Assembly (NCBI GenBank): GCA_020059605.1
Contig: JAGVBT010000105.1
Location: forward strand, 1 to 59,248
Reading direction: 5' to 3'
DNA length: 59,248 bases
Source of the DNA: Deltaproteobacteria bacterium
GTDB lineage: Bacteria > Desulfobacterota > BSN033 > UBA1163
Shown here: in pieces, positions 26,550 through 56,873 of the stretch
Position numbering within the stretch: position 1 is the stretch's first letter
Layout of the letters: every line of letters starts with the position of its first letter
The notes under the pieces: generated by a model
The model's database searches: none
The model's input: only the letters and a program-made list of their open reading frames with translations
What the model was told of the DNA's origin: nothing
Program-made: the position numbers and the translations under genes

Positions 26550-28178
26550 CTAAAAGATGGATGGTTCTTTAAATTCTCCGTATACGTCTTTAAAAACTTT
26601 GGTCATCTCCCCAACCGTGGCATAGGCTTTACAGCATTCCAGAAGGCAGGGCATTACATTCTTCTCTGTTTTTGCCGCATGCTCAAGGTCTTTCAGTCGT
26701 TCGGTGACCTTCCGATTGTCCCTCTCACGCCTCACTTCCTTCGTGCGCCGAATTTGCTGTTTTGCGGATTCCAGCCGGTATTCATGAAGTTCGACCTCCA
26801 TCTCTTCGCCTTCGGTATATTTGTTGACGCCCACCTTGATCAATTCCCCCTTCTGGACCCCTTTCTCAAATTCGTAAGCCTGCCTTGCCACCTCTCTTTG
26901 GACATAGCCGGTTTCCACCGCCTTGATCATTCCTCCCATTTCATCGACCCGTTTCATCTCCTCAACGATTCTCTCTTCCATCTGTTTGGTCAGGGTTTCG
27001 ATGAAATAAGAGCCTGCCAGGGGGTCGACCGTATCGCGCAACCCCATCTCTTCCATCAGGATCTGAAAGGTCCTGAGAGAGAGGAGAGCTGCCTTCGGAG
27101 TGGGGATGGTGTAGGCTTCATCAAAGGAGCAGAGGGCCGTGGTCTGTGCGCCGCCCAGGGCGGCGGCAAGGGCATAATAGGCCCCCCGAATGATATTGTT
27201 CTCGGGCTGGGCCTTGGTCATGCCGTATCCGCCGCCTCCAAAGATCCCCCGAAGGAGAAGCGACCGGTTGTCCCTCGCTCCATAGCGGTCTTTCAGATTG
27301 ATGGCCCAGAGCTTTCTGGCGGCGCGGAATTTTGCCGTCTGTTCCCATAAATTGCCGAAAACATTGATGTTGAAGGTGAAGCTCCTGACGAAATCGTCGA
27401 CCGCGTGGCCCCGGCGGAGAACCTCTTCAATGTAAGTGTTGGCAATCTGAATGGCGTAGGCAATTTCCTGGACTGGAGAGCAGCCCGATTCGCGAATGTG
27501 GTATCCGCAAACGCTCACCGGGTTGGTCCGGGGAAGTTCCTTCATCGAGTATTCGATCGTATCCCCGATGAGCCGGACGGCAGGCCTGACGGGGAAAATC
27601 CAAGCTCCCCGGCCGATCATCTCTTTGAGGATATCGTTTTGAGGAGTGGCGCTCACCCTCTCTTTTTTAAATCCAAATTTTTCAGCTGTAGCCTGAAACA
27701 TGGCAAGCATGATGCTGGCCACTGCATTGATGGTGAGGCCGACCCCAATCCGGTCAAGGGGGATATCCTTGAACGCAACTTCGAAATCCCTCAGAGAGTC
27801 AACGGCCATTCCGACCCGTCCGACCTCGCCCTCCGCCAGAGGATCATCGGAATCAAGCCCCATCTGCGTGGGCAAATCGAAGGCGACATTCAGACCGGTC
27901 TGGCCATGGGAGATCATCAGCTTGAACCGTTCGTTGGTCTCTTCCGGCGCTCCGAATCCGGTATACTGGCGGGTGGTCCATTCCCGGCTCCGGTACCCCA
28001 TGGGGTGAATCCCCCTTGTAAAGGGATATTCACCGGGATAGGCCAGATCCTTAGCGGGATCGAACCCGACCTCCTCCAGGTCTCCCTGGGTATAGACCGG
28101 TTTGATATGGATGCCCGACTGGAGGATGACATCCAGAATCTCGTCCTTTTCATTCTTGACATACTTTGCAACACCCAT
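26550..28178 (-). CDS. Methylmalonyl-CoA mutase family, large (substrate-binding) subunit
   Basis: TIM-barrel subunit of an adenosylcobalamin-dependent acyl-CoA mutase, 542 residues, without the B12 domain, which is encoded separately just upstream. It rearranges the carbon skeleton of an acyl-CoA through radical chemistry. Motifs include YPFTRGIHPMGYR, TTRQYTGFG (Tyr72), GLNVAFDLPTQMG, NDILKEMIGRGAWIFP (Arg190) and GYHIRESG. From family knowledge, Tyr and Arg at the positions of Tyr72 and Arg190 are those of methylmalonyl-CoA mutase, unlike Phe/Gln in isobutyryl-CoA mutase or Ile/Gln in 2-hydroxyisobutyryl-CoA mutase; the alignment is by eye. No MeaB/ArgK chaperone is seen in the window. Confidence 0.93.
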   Translation of the reverse strand: MGVAKYVKNEKDEILDVILQSGIHIKPVYTQGDLEEVGFDPAKDLAYPGEYPFTRGIHPMGYRSREWTTRQYTGFGAPEETNERFKLMISHGQTGLNVAFDLPTQMGLDSDDPLAEGEVGRVGMAVDSLRDFEVAFKDIPLDRIGVGLTINAVASIMLAMFQATAEKFGFKKERVSATPQNDILKEMIGRGAWIFPVRPAVRLIGDTIEYSMKELPRTNPVSVCGYHIRESGCSPVQEIAYAIQIANTYIEEVLRRGHAVDDFVRSFTFNINVFGNLWEQTAKFRAARKLWAINLKDRYGARDNRSLLLRGIFGGGGYGMTKAQPENNIIRGAYYALAAALGGAQTTALCSFDEAYTIPTPKAALLSLRTFQILMEEMGLRDTVDPLAGSYFIETLTKQMEERIVEEMKRVDEMGGMIKAVETGYVQREVARQAYEFEKGVQKGELIKVGVNKYTEGEEMEVELHEYRLESAKQQIRRTKEVRRERDNRKVTERLKDLEHAAKTEKNVMPCLLECCKAYATVGEMTKVFKDVYGEFKEPSIF

Positions 28179-28184
28179 CTCACA

Positions 28185-28328
28185 CTCCTTAAATCCGAAA
28201 TCCGAATATCGAAATCCGAAACAAATTCAAATTTTTAAATCTCAAAACCAATTCAATCGTTTGGACTATTTGAATTTTGGGCATGGGTGCTTGTTTCGGA
28301 TTTTATGCTTCGGATTTAGAGTTTTCCC
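28185..28328. repeat. Intergenic AT-rich repeat sharing a 22-base word (copy 3)
   Basis: Left arm 28189-28227 contains the word ATATCGAAATCCGAAACA. The right arm, about 28290-28328, carries its inverted form (TTGTTTCGGATTT, then CTTCGGATTTAGAG). The spacer lies between the B12-binding and mutase genes and can fold on itself. Confidence 0.75.
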
Positions 28329-28330
28329 GA

Positions 28331-28732
28331 TTATGATCGGGGTTTAATGTTTTCTTTGATCCATCGGATCGATTCGTCAAAAGGGGTTCCCCCCGGAAAG
28401 ATGCCATGGATGCCGATGTTTTGAAGGAGGGGAATGTCCCTCTTGGGAATGACCCCGCCCACTGCCAGCAGGACATCGTCGATTTTCATCTCTTTCATCT
28501 TTTTCGTCAGCTTTTCACAGATGGGCAGGTGGGCGCCGGACATGATGGAAAGGCCAATCACATCCACGTCCTCCTGAATGGCCGTATGGATGATCTGGTC
28601 GACGGTTTGATGAAGGCCCGTGTAAATGACCTCCATGCCGGCATCACGCAGGGCCTGTGCCACCACCTTCGCTCCGCGATCATGACCATCTAAACCGGGC
28701 TTTGCCACCAGAATGCGAATCTTCTTTTCCAC
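28331..28732 (-). CDS. Cobalamin-binding subunit of acyl-CoA mutase
   Basis: A 133-residue B12-binding domain protein, the stand-alone small partner of the mutase large subunit. The motif DGHDRG (DxHxxG, residues about 15-20) supplies the histidine that coordinates cobalt in the base-off/His-on mode. The SIMSGAHLP and GGVIPKRD segments are typical of mutase small domains. It has an ATG 24 bases inside the GntR-led gene run and lies directly before the mutase large subunit. Two-subunit arrangement as in isobutyryl- and 2-hydroxyisobutyryl-CoA mutases and archaeal methylmalonyl-CoA mutases. Confidence 0.95.
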   Translation of the reverse strand: MEKKIRILVAKPGLDGHDRGAKVVAQALRDAGMEVIYTGLHQTVDQIIHTAIQEDVDVIGLSIMSGAHLPICEKLTKKMKEMKIDDVLLAVGGVIPKRDIPLLQNIGIHGIFPGGTPFDESIRWIKENIKPRS

Positions 28733-28738
28733 TTGATC

Positions 28739-28774
28739 TCCTCAATCTTCAATCTAAAATCTTCAATCTGAAAT
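28739..28774. repeat. Short word repeat between GntR and B12-binding genes
   Basis: The word TCAATCT is repeated with variations (CAATCTTCAATCTAAAATC and onwards). Similar low-complexity word repeats fill several other short spacers in this window. Confidence 0.5.
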
Positions 28775-29461
28775 CTATGGGACCATCCTTCCTTCGTCGA
28801 TTTCCTTGAGGACAATCTCCTTTCCTCTTTCCAGATGAGTTCGAACCAGTTTCTCCACCAGCCTGGGGTTTCTTTTCTTCATGGCTTCGAGCATTTGCCG
28901 ATGGTCGGAGATCGAGGTTTTAAAGCCGCTCGGCGTATGGAGCAGGGCGAGGCGGTAGCGGTAAAAATAGTCGCGGAAGTTGTTGATCATCTCGATCAAC
29001 TTCTTACTCTTGCAGGATTTGTAGAGAAGGTCATGAAATTCCGTATAGAGTTGAACGGCCTTTTCCCCATCCCCCTTTCCCAGGGCGCTTTCGGATTCGC
29101 TGACTTTTTTTTCGAGGGCGTCAATCTTATCCGGGGGAATATGAACGGCAGCCAGATAAGCCGCATAGCTTTCCAGGGCGATGCGAATGCCGAAGATCTC
29201 TTCCACGTCCTCCTTCGTGAATTCCCTGACGGCAAACCCTCCTTTCGGAAGCCTTGAAACAAGATCGTCCCGTTCCAGTTTGTGAAAGGCTTCCCTGACC
29301 GGAGTGCGGCTGATTCCGATCTGGTGGGCCAGCGTTTCCTCGATCAACCGTTGCCCCCCTTTCAATTTCCCATGCAGAATGGACTTCTTTAATGAATCGT
29401 AGACCACTTCCCGAAGGGACTTCCTCTTTCCTATCTTGACCGCTCCGAATAGGTTTTCCAC
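28775..29461 (-). CDS. GntR family transcriptional regulator, FCD (FadR) subfamily
   Basis: Regulator of 228 residues. The winged helix (about residues 15-80) carries the GntR signature EETLAHQIGISRTPVREAFHKLERDDLV. The FCD ligand-binding domain (about 90-220) keeps histidines in EFHDLL, SDHRQML and RTHLERG that normally bind a metal and a carboxylate ligand. The start is GTG with AAAGGAG 7 bases upstream. It is the first gene of a run of eleven minus-strand genes that ends with HyuB. The palindrome TGTATACTGTATCCA in its own promoter also occurs at 10703-10717 and, in variant form, at 7699-7713, so it likely represses itself, two TRAP operons and the hydroxylase until a substrate or acyl-CoA appears. 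Confidence 0.93.
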   Translation of the reverse strand: MENLFGAVKIGKRKSLREVVYDSLKKSILHGKLKGGQRLIEETLAHQIGISRTPVREAFHKLERDDLVSRLPKGGFAVREFTKEDVEEIFGIRIALESYAAYLAAVHIPPDKIDALEKKVSESESALGKGDGEKAVQLYTEFHDLLYKSCKSKKLIEMINNFRDYFYRYRLALLHTPSGFKTSISDHRQMLEAMKKRNPRLVEKLVRTHLERGKEIVLKEIDEGRMVP

Positions 29462-29630: not shown

Positions 29631-29677
29631 TAAAATAGCAATTTATCCCATCCGCGATCAGGAAAGGAGGATCGATC

Positions 29678-29941
29678 ATGGCAGCAGAAGAGATTAAAGT
29701 TTATTCTACCCCCACCTGACCCTATTGTAAAATGGCGAAAGAGTATCTTTCGCAGAAAGGCTACGCATTTACGGAATATGATGTGACCAAAGATCGTGCC
29801 GCGCTGGACGAGATGGTGAAGATTTCAGGCGCGCGGAGCGTTCCGGTGATCGCCGCCTGCAACGAAGTGATGGTTGGGTTCGAAAAAAACAAACTGGAAC
29901 AGATGCTCAGCTGTATCCAGCAGCGGTCGGAAGTGAAATAA
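29678..29941 (+). CDS. Glutaredoxin-like selenoprotein (in-frame UGA read as selenocysteine)
   Basis: The frame from ATG 29678 (GGAAAGGAGG 8 bases upstream) to TAA 29941 encodes 87 residues with one internal TGA at 29717-29719. Read as selenocysteine (U14), the protein begins AAEEIKVYSTPT-U-PYCKMAKEYL, so UPYC replaces the glutaredoxin CPYC motif. The rest matches the family, including SGARSVPVIAACNEVMVGF with the cis-proline. The Cys17 partner is kept. A perfect 8-base-pair hairpin begins 15 bases after the UGA with a G in its three-base loop, as expected for a bacterial SECIS. It probably acts as a cytosolic thiol-disulfide reductant. A pseudogene is unlikely given the intact downstream frame. 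Standard gene callers would report only the part from 29732. Confidence 0.88.
29735..29753 (+). promoter_or_regulatory. SECIS-like hairpin within the glutaredoxin reading frame
   Basis: GCGAAAGA-GTA-TCTTTCGC: eight perfect base pairs and a GTA loop. It begins 16 bases after the last base of the UGA, placing the loop G 24 bases after it, close to the geometry of the formate dehydrogenase SECIS. It codes for residues 20-26 at the same time. Confidence 0.85.
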
Positions 29942-54368: not shown

Positions 54369-56873
54369 ATGGTGGAGAACAGGCATGAAGAAGTACCCGT
54401 GGAGAAATTGAGATGGCGATGCGATCCCGATTCATTCTCTTTTGAAACCACCGAATCGATCCAACCCTGCAGCGAGATCATCGGTCAGGACAGGGCCTTA
54501 GAGGCGATCCGGGTCGGGCTCGGGATTAACAGCATCGGGTATAACATCTTTGTCACCGGCCTGGCAGGGACAGGGCGTTTCACAACGATCAAGTCGGTTC
54601 TGAAAGAACTTGATGCCGCCGGAAAGATTCCCAATGATATCTGCTACGTGAATAACTTTAAAAATGTGGACATGCCCCATATGTTCAGCCTTCCCGCAGG
54701 CAAGGGAAATGATTTCAAAAAAGAGATGGAGACCCTGATCGAATCGCTCAAGAAGAAGATCCCCCTCATCTTTGAGAATGAGAACTACCTCAATAAGAAG
54801 AAGGAACTGGTGGAAGGATTCCGGAACAAGCAGGCCGAGATGTTCCGGGAGTTTGAAAAGAAAGTGAACAAGGAGGGCTTCGCCCTCGTTCAAATCCAGA
54901 TGGGACCCTATTCACGGCCTGGTATTTTTCCGATGGTAGAGGGAAACCCGGTCAACATTGAGCAGTTGGAAACAATGGCGGAAGAAGAAAAGTTTTCCCG
55001 GGAGGAGCTCGGAAAACTGAAGGAGAAACAGGCCGAACTCATCAACGAATTGGAAAGCCTCTTCAAGGAGACCCGGAAATCGGAGAAGGAAATCAAGGAT
55101 GAATTGTCCGCCCTCGATATGGAGGTGATCTCCCCGGTCATCAAAGATTCCATCGCGGACATCAAGGAGAGGTTTAATTTTCCTAAGATTCATCAGTACC
55201 TGAGCGATGTCCAGGAGGATATCCTGGCCAATCTTCATCGGTTCAGGGAAAAAGAGGAAGCCGGACCTTCACCTCTTCCCGGGCTTGTTCTTCCCCAACC
55301 GGTGGATGCCTTTACCGAATATCAGGTCAATGTCCTGGTGGACAACTCCGAGACCAAAGGGGCGCCCATCATCATAGAGATGACGCCAAATTACCGGAAC
55401 CTTTTCGGCACCATCGAACGGGTGGTGGAGCGCTCGGGCATATGGAAGACCGACTTCACCCATATCAAGGCAGGGTCTTTCTTAAGGGCCAATGGCGGGT
55501 ATTTGATCTTCAATGCACTCGATGGCCTTGTGGAGCCGGGGGTCTGGCCCGCCCTGAAACGGACCCTGAAGAACCAGGTGATGGAGGTTCAGACTTACGA
55601 TCCCTTCTATTTTTTTGCCACCAGCGCCCTTAAACCGGAGCCCATCGAATGCGATACGAAAGTCATCATGATCGGCGATTCTTATCTCTTCCATCTCCTC
55701 TTTAACCTGGATGACGACTTTAAAAAAGTATTTAAGATCAAGGCCGACTTTGATTCGGTGATGGAGAAGGACGACGCGAAGATCCTCCAGTATGCCTGCT
55801 TCATCCGGAAGATCTGCGACGAGGAGAAGTTAAAACCGTTTGATAAGACGGGCGTGGCCGCGGTCGTCGAGTATGGGACGGAAATTGCAGGAAGACAGAA
55901 AAAACTTTCGGCCCGTTTTCATGTCATCGCCGATATCCTCAGGGAGGCCAATTACTGGGCTTCGAAGGACGGGAGCGATGTGGTAAAGGAGAAACATGTG
56001 GATCTGGCGATCCAGAAGAAGGTCCACCGAGTGAATCTCATCGAGGAAAAAATACAGGAGATGATCGAGGACGGAACCATCATGATTGACTCGGATGGAA
56101 GAGTGGTAGGCCAGGTCAACGGCCTCTCCGTTTATAACCTTGGGGATTATTCCTTCGGAAAACCCTCGAGGATTACTGTCACGACCTCCCTGGGGAAGGC
56201 CGGGATCATCAATATCGAGAGGGAGGTGGAAATGAGCGGCCCCATCCATAATAAAGGGGTCTATATCCTTTCGGGATACCTCCGGGACCGGTATGCCCAG
56301 GACAAGCCGATCACCATGAGCGCCAGCATCTGTTTTGAGCAGTCTTACAGCGGGGTGGAAGGGGACAGCGCCTCCTCCACGGAACTGTATGCCCTTCTGT
56401 CGAGCCTTTCCGGTCTTCCCCTCCGGCAGGATATTGCCATCACGGGGTCCGTCAATCAAAAAGGGGAGATTCAACCCATCGGCGGGGTGAATGAGAAGGT
56501 CGAGGGGTTCTTCGAAGTTTGCAAGGCCAAGGGGTTAACGGGAAATCAGGGCGTGATGATTCCTCACCTCAATGTCGATGACCTGATGTTGAGGAAGGAT
56601 GTGGTGCAGGCGATTGCGGGAGGGAAGTTCCATGTCTACCCGGTCAAAACGATCGACCAAGGGATCGAGATTCTAACCGGTGTGAAGGCAGGGGAGAGGC
56701 TGGAAGACGGAGAATTTCCTAAAGACACGGTCAATGACCGGGTGGACAGGAGGCTTCAGGATTTGGGAAAGAAGATCAAAGAGTATGAGGGAGGCGGAGA
56801 GGAATCCAAGGAAAAGAAGAAAAAGAGAGGGAAAGCCTCTTGTAGAGTCGAGTCTCCGACCTGCAATGGGTAG
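54369..56873 (+). CDS. Lon-related ATP-binding protease (LonB/LonH group)
   Basis: Protein of 834 residues with an N-terminal AAA+ region and C-terminal Lon protease domain. The P-loop-like segment is TGLAGTGRFTT, with Arg70 where Walker A has lysine, a change characteristic of this Lon-related group (YcbZ-like). A coiled-coil region lies around residues 110-270. The Lon catalytic dyad is Ser667 (EGDSASST) and Lys710 (GVNEKVEGF), 43 residues apart as in E. coli Lon. GGYLIFNALDGLVEPGVW and NIEREVEMSGPIHNKGVYIL are also typical. AAGGAGGGGG precedes the ATG. It likely degrades damaged or regulatory proteins. It follows ClpX-like and DnaJ genes in the same direction. Confidence 0.92.
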   Translation: MVENRHEEVPVEKLRWRCDPDSFSFETTESIQPCSEIIGQDRALEAIRVGLGINSIGYNIFVTGLAGTGRFTTIKSVLKELDAAGKIPNDICYVNNFKNVDMPHMFSLPAGKGNDFKKEMETLIESLKKKIPLIFENENYLNKKKELVEGFRNKQAEMFREFEKKVNKEGFALVQIQMGPYSRPGIFPMVEGNPVNIEQLETMAEEEKFSREELGKLKEKQAELINELESLFKETRKSEKEIKDELSALDMEVISPVIKDSIADIKERFNFPKIHQYLSDVQEDILANLHRFREKEEAGPSPLPGLVLPQPVDAFTEYQVNVLVDNSETKGAPIIIEMTPNYRNLFGTIERVVERSGIWKTDFTHIKAGSFLRANGGYLIFNALDGLVEPGVWPALKRTLKNQVMEVQTYDPFYFFATSALKPEPIECDTKVIMIGDSYLFHLLFNLDDDFKKVFKIKADFDSVMEKDDAKILQYACFIRKICDEEKLKPFDKTGVAAVVEYGTEIAGRQKKLSARFHVIADILREANYWASKDGSDVVKEKHVDLAIQKKVHRVNLIEEKIQEMIEDGTIMIDSDGRVVGQVNGLSVYNLGDYSFGKPSRITVTTSLGKAGIINIEREVEMSGPIHNKGVYILSGYLRDRYAQDKPITMSASICFEQSYSGVEGDSASSTELYALLSSLSGLPLRQDIAITGSVNQKGEIQPIGGVNEKVEGFFEVCKAKGLTGNQGVMIPHLNVDDLMLRKDVVQAIAGGKFHVYPVKTIDQGIEILTGVKAGERLEDGEFPKDTVNDRVDRRLQDLGKKIKEYEGGGEESKEKKKKRGKASCRVESPTCNG

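Follow-up and report, generated by a model that had tools for sequence, protein, structure and literature searches.

The window analysed here, a stretch of 59,248 nucleotides representing contig C131 of a deltaproteobacterial genome (G000; 4.38 Mb in 167 contigs, 93.7% complete), carries a short gene that, taken as a whole, is best explained as a selenoprotein glutaredoxin of the UxxC type, with a probability of about 95%. The cell almost certainly reads its internal UGA as selenocysteine (Sec). Sequence comparison establishes a conserved UGA, a SECIS contrast between Sec and Cys homologues, family membership and the presence of selA, selB and selD, and from these results we infer Sec incorporation together with the catalysis, reductant and client proposed below. 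The initial annotation had read the gene as a selenocysteine glutaredoxin; its observation is confirmed and its interpretation supported.

29665..29670, + strand: AGGAGG ribosome-binding site, 7 nt 5' of the ATG at 29678
29678..29941, + strand: selenocysteine-containing glutaredoxin gene, 87 residues followed by a TAA stop
29717..29719, + strand: in-frame UGA, Sec14, predicted catalytic residue of UPYC (TGA in 50 of 93 homologues, Cys codons in 43 of 93)
29726..29728, + strand: Cys17, resolving cysteine, invariant in the 24-row alignment A2
29735..29753, + strand: bacterial SECIS hairpin with an 8-bp stem and a GUA loop, fitting the four-rule bSECIS model and displaying the Sec-versus-Cys contrast
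29840..29845, + strand: Val55-Pro56, substrate loop of the thioredoxin fold (columns V55 and P56 invariant in A2)
29858..29860, + strand: Cys61, extra cysteine of the subclade (a Cys at most five residues behind VPV/VPQ in 37 of 50 TGA rows and 5 of 43 Cys rows)
29912..29914, + strand: Cys79, extra cysteine of the subclade (any Cys behind VGF in 35 of 50 TGA rows and 6 of 43 Cys rows)

The forward frame from 29678 to 29941 is interrupted by a single UGA and otherwise open; with TGA rendered as U, its translation reads MAAEEIKVYSTPTUPYCKMAKEYLSQKGYAFTEYDVTKDRAALDEMVKISGARSVPVIAACNEVMVGFEKNKLEQMLSCIQQRSEVK. The in-frame T-UGA-PYC glutaredoxin motif initially described is present, the UGA sitting in the context S-T-P-T-U-P-Y-C where the catalytic Cys belongs, and the resolving Cys and downstream family features are kept as had been claimed. 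Both the [C/U]PxC motif and the VP loop of glutaredoxins are found in alignment A2, which comprises 24 hand-picked rows, and we take the Pro of this loop to be a cis-Pro. The protein scores 67.7 bits with Pfam PF00462 (cut-off 22.9) and, with C in place of U, 93 bits with NCBIfam TIGR02196 GlrX_YruB (cut-off 88.55) and 73.3 bits with NF041212 Uxx_star (cut-off 66), while missing the cut-offs of UXX-star families 1, 2 and 3 (NF041114, 55.7 of 72 bits; NF041211, 49.1 of 100; NF047338, 47.3 of 97). Its predicted structure is a thioredoxin fold of moderate confidence (mean pLDDT 74.5; the other four models, 49-65) whose top PDB matches are BC3987, presumably a Bacillus-type protein, and the dithiol glutaredoxin cGrx1 (7c10; 44% identity, TM 0.77 by query), the latter also being the best PDB match by sequence.

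Mechanical ORF calling places the start at 29732 and loses the active-site motif, as had been anticipated for automatic calling, and the 69-residue piece so obtained still passes the PF00462 model, its score falling from 67.7 to 37.3 bits. A shorter product made from this ATG and devoid of an active site is nevertheless extremely improbable: four of 16 same-family rows (L032, L034, L035 and L037) have ATT or ATA in place of the internal ATG, the window has no ribosome site ahead of it, and selection acts on the codons upstream of the UGA. A GGAGG or AGGAG lies 5' of the start at 29678 or its counterpart in 19 of 23 homologue rows, by our own count. Purifying selection acts on both sides of the UGA, with synonymous and nonsynonymous single-base codon differences numbering 579 versus 122 upstream, 66 versus 12 in the hairpin codons and 3202 versus 373 in the remaining downstream codons (pairwise sums over the 16 rows L023-L038; neutral expectation, 75-79% nonsynonymous). 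This selection before and behind the codon, the Shine-Dalgarno sequence upstream and the occurrence of UGA at the same position in independent assemblies from several phyla also argue against the UGA being a true stop, in a pseudogene or through a sequencing error; UGA stops as a general rule, and TGA terminates three of the 11 window ORFs examined, but we see next to no chance that this reading is correct. Promoter and terminator scans returned one promoter-like site, on the opposite strand, and no terminator. A lone L31-leader match in an Rfam search (E<=1), at 16 bits and below the gathering score, was taken as chance.

The selenocysteine reading draws much of its weight from relatives of the gene. 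Matches at E<=0.001 turned up in 42 of the 59 genomes searched; many of these matches are distant glutaredoxins. TGA occupies the Sec14 codon in all 19 best-matching places (L023-L041; 67-99% identity), 18 of which lie in other genomes, and this recurrence dispels the doubt, raised by the initial annotation, that the codon might be a sequencing error. Within the window's own family, 16 of the 17 genomes searched hold the gene with its UGA; in the initial statement that selenoglutaredoxins are known in a few anaerobes but rare, "rare" is too strong for this lineage. The exception, G005 (same genus, 98% complete), gave no glutaredoxin match yet has a tRNA-Sec-like match, so the gene can be lost. 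For the alignment of Cys and Sec homologues that had been suggested, 30 loci (L023-L052) were combined with 80 of 187 confirmed relatives, and removal of 17 identical copies from these 110 rows left 93 distinct ones; the genome search had given more places than the 30 loci taken, and five weaker ones read besides all have TGA in the match. The Sec14 codon is TGA in 50 of the 93 rows, TGT in 24 and TGC in 19, and the Cys17 position holds Cys in 49 of the 50 TGA rows and in all 43 Cys rows.

Downstream of the UGA, the 8-bp perfect hairpin with a G-containing loop noted at the outset was found as described, with its 5' stem GCGAAAGA at 29735-29742, the loop GUA at 29743-29745 and its 3' stem UCUUUCGC at 29746-29753. 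The bSECIS model, as given in the excerpted text of a 2026 review (PMC13188914), asks for a loop of 3-9 nt with G in the first two loop positions, a stem of 4-16 bp, a UGA-to-loop distance of 16-37 nt and an MFE <= -7.5. The hairpin agrees with this model, and with the spacing claimed for it, in its GUA loop, its 8 bp, its distances of 15 nt from UGA to stem and 23 nt from UGA to loop, and its MFE of -8.6 when folded bare; with flanks the MFE is -10.0, a value equalled by 6 of 200 dinucleotide shuffles. When the 20 residues after the UGA were recoded synonymously, 261 of 20,000 recodings fitted the SECIS model and 120 of 20,000 had all eight pairs in place. Across the whole stretch, 119 TGA codons lie in a frame that stays open in either direction (author-chosen cut-offs of >=9 codons before and >=40 behind), six of which fit the hairpin model; a Cys/Ser/Thr/Sec-type motif neighbours two of the six, of which one is the glutaredoxin gene. 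The other, at 54498-55238 (-), combines a strong hairpin (-11.4) with open frames on both sides and is probably accidental. Taken alone, the hairpin is only moderately improbable; the strong evidence is the homologue comparison.

In that comparison, a strict rule with free placement of the hairpin was passed by 35 of 50 TGA rows and none of 43 Cys rows; all eight stem pairs were in place in 28 of 50 versus 0 of 43, and at least seven of them in 39 of 50 versus 2 of 43. GU opens the loop in 49 of 50 TGA rows versus 17 of 43 Cys rows, and codon choice in the stem follows the same division: Leu24 is CTT in 49 of 50 versus 11 of 43, residue 22 is GAG in 49 of 50 versus 17 of 43, and residue 25 is TCG in 40 of 50 versus 3 of 43. 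The strict rule is failed by 15 of the 50 TGA rows and, with the threshold at -5 kcal/mol, still by 10 of 50; L149, which has a different hairpin (-6.3), is one that misses it. Variation in the stem includes an A-U pair replacing G-C in L091 and L101 (GCA with TTG), at the cost of a Ser-to-Leu change, and a stem formed with Arg CGC in L139 and L147 (Chloroflexi). Two Cys rows, L104 and L105, form a hairpin of seven pairs (-3.1 and -3.4 kcal/mol, respectively), and these weak hairpins are perhaps remnants of a Sec ancestor left by a Sec-to-Cys change. The 93 homologues thereby show how strictly codon choice tracks the SECIS, down to Cys rows with a weak, possibly remnant hairpin.

Alignment A3 (the window plus all TGA rows of the 80 loci except L149, 43 of 44, with L145 entered six bases off) has 89.8% of its stem cells paired, a figure that drops to 35-70% when the 3' stem partners are slid by 1 to 3 columns. 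Covariation on A3 was weak, because the stem hardly varies: a double change occurs in 2 cells, a level reached by 25 of 500 shuffles, the paired fraction compares with a shuffled mean of 89.2% (36/500), and one covariation measure gave 500/500. With so weak a signal, covariation was dropped as proof of the stem. A tree of the 93 rows (81 columns) requires 11 Sec/Cys changes in its best form, two of which are forced by starred branches; a tree test of the association of Sec with the hairpin was set aside, as only two well-supported independent Sec/Cys contrasts are too few for a sign test. The case as read from these alignments is one of Sec/Cys contrast and codon choice.

Of the four genes that the initial annotation proposed to look for, three are present, each above its cut-off: selA (622 bits, C63), selB (372 bits, C123) and selD (392 bits, C150). 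The selD product (G000:C150:37026-37952 (+), L011) has a UGA at codon 11 of the matched stretch, in KKAGUAAK, and is thus predicted to be itself a selenoprotein. The fourth, selC, was not found in assembly G000 with the RF01852 model, a tRNA-Sec pattern, selC DNA with flanks, or tRNA DNA with relatives as control; RF01852 had scored 150 of 617 candidates, and selC was therefore sought again by the last three routes. The RF01852 match at the gathering score (47 bits) is tRNA-Ser(TGA) according to ARAGORN and was rejected as tRNA-Sec. The tRNA-Sec pattern matches 15 of 21 genomes, G000 not among them, and ARAGORN called tRNA-SeC at 10 of the 11 such loci given to it. Searched with the G007 tRNA-Sec, eight of nine same-genus genomes match, G000 and G004 being without a match; folK is present in the same eight of nine genomes, within 1 kb of selC and on the same contig each time, and was likewise not found in G000 or G004. 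We infer that selC and folK are both absent because one segment is missing, and the absence of selC is probably an assembly gap; its loss would be odd while selA, selB, selD and several UGA genes remain. The failure to see selC in the assembly would also suit decoding of the UGA as Trp or Gly, through an altered genetic code or a suppressor tRNA, a reading made very unlikely by the termination of 3 of the 11 window ORFs checked at UGA, by the Cys codons at this site in all 43 non-TGA homologues and by the presence of selA, selB and selD.

The selenoprotein reading is further supported by a second selenoprotein gene noticed in the same genome (G000:C91:7214-7402 (-), L150:1697-1912). It belongs to UXX-star family 1 (99.6 bits; cut-off 72), has its Sec at UPHT and carries a further UGA three codons before its final TGA (FGGT-U-SV). 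Genes with stops at both places also occur in G008, G012, G015 and G016, the second stop there not necessarily being UGA.

Returning to the selenoprotein glutaredoxin, ribosomes would start at the ATG at 29678, and SelB carrying Sec-tRNA would bind the hairpin behind the UGA at 29717 and insert Sec, as in the standard mechanism. Catalysis would be of the dithiol type: the selenolate of Sec14 may then attack a client protein at a disulfide or at an intermediate of sulfoxide repair, with Cys17 resolving the product into a Sec-Cys selenylsulfide, as suggested by cGrx1. The oxidised protein would be reduced by NAD(P)H via thioredoxin reductase (TrxR), directly or through another redoxin. Such recycling is likely, given the lack of a PF02955 match, the TrxR found in the genome and the TrxR neighbours seen elsewhere. 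The genome holds one TrxR-like match at E<=1e-20, on C148, 35% identical to the flavoprotein part of a fused query. In neighbourhoods read for 32 of the 80 loci and the window (hand-chosen, nearly all TGA rows), a TrxR-like gene adjoins the glutaredoxin gene in 9 of 32, none of them of the window's own family; neither the window nor the 10 own-family loci read has a TrxR neighbour (L070 offering only about 100 bases behind the gene). The TrxR-like flavoprotein lies 3' of the gene, on the same strand and within 160 nt, in L091, L092, L094, L097, L104 (a Cys row), L112, L118 and L149, and lies before it in L087. The flavoprotein opens with a CxxC-type glutaredoxin domain in L091, L094, L097, L104 and L118 and, judged by sequence, in L092 too; the five flavoproteins scanned have high AhpF and TrxR model scores that fall below the equivalog cut-offs. 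These neighbours, found in other lineages, suggest a route by which glutaredoxins of this kind could dispense with glutathione. Glutathione is named as the reductant of the Grx disulfide in the excerpted text of PMC7642778, as for glutaredoxins in general; for the present protein we think it an unlikely reductant in view of the TrxR neighbours elsewhere and of the glutathione synthetase model PF02955, the one model searched, which has no match in the 93.7% complete genome and matches 9 of 14 controls. At 26550-29461 (-), the window encodes methylmalonyl-CoA-mutase-like large and B12-binding subunits beside a GntR/FCD regulator, and relatives of these subunits and of the regulator lie upstream of the glutaredoxin gene in L073, L080, L082 and L083.

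Cys61 and Cys79 nearly always co-occur and mark a subclade that also holds the Cys-form rows L042, L095, L104, L105 and L106; in the count for Cys79, one of the six Cys rows (L132) has its Cys at another position, and two TGA rows have no tail to test. Predicted secondary structure puts Cys61 in the turn between beta3 and beta4 and Cys79 within the final helix; judging by the fold, both would be far from the active site, and the pair may form a structural disulfide, bind a metal or act as a second redox couple. We tentatively raise the possibility of a distinct, mostly deltaproteobacterial four-chalcogen subfamily (Sec14, Cys17, Cys61 and Cys79), in which the two additional conserved cysteines, on the opposite side of the fold, would form a second redox or metal site and the protein would serve as a selenol relay independent of glutathione, drawing its electrons from thioredoxin reductase or, in some lineages, from a glutaredoxin-TrxR fusion encoded next to it. 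The extra cysteines might also befit a selenoprotein that binds metals or metalloids, or acts as another Uxx-star protein, rather than as a disulfide reductase of the glutaredoxin type; the Uxx-star subfamily model is passed, and in the excerpt of PMC13188914 the Sec of UXX-star proteins may ligate a metal or encounter substrates not yet known. The chance of such a role is small, considering that UPYC and the resolving Cys17 are kept, that the best score, above cut-off, is with the YruB glutaredoxin model while the cut-offs of UXX-star families 1, 2 and 3 are failed, and that TrxR neighbours occur in other clades.

The closest characterised relative of the glutaredoxin described here is cGrx1 of Clostridium oremlandii (PDB 7c10, 7c12), according to the excerpted text of PMC7642778 a native selenoprotein with Sec in U-P-x-C; it has the same fold and an 84-residue chain. 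It differs in coming from another phylum and in having Asp at the place of Cys61, with Cys79 just beyond the aligned stretch; a selenoprotein MsrA, of which cGrx1 is the proposed reductant, is its proposed client (PMC7642778, same excerpt). TIGR02196 and NF041212, whose cut-offs are both passed, cover wider groups, the present clade having the extra Cys61 and Cys79. Sec-containing glutaredoxins (UxxC, PF00462) are listed as a selenoprotein family in tables of PMC13188914 and PMC9312934, and appear, in the excerpt of PMC1088965, as a new family of ten sequences in the 2005 Sargasso Sea survey; from these the gene shows no difference in kind. A well-supported selenoprotein gene, whose active site mechanical ORF calling cuts off, is thus added to a kind already modelled in NCBIfam (YruB, Uxx-star), new as a member and ordinary for its bacterial group.
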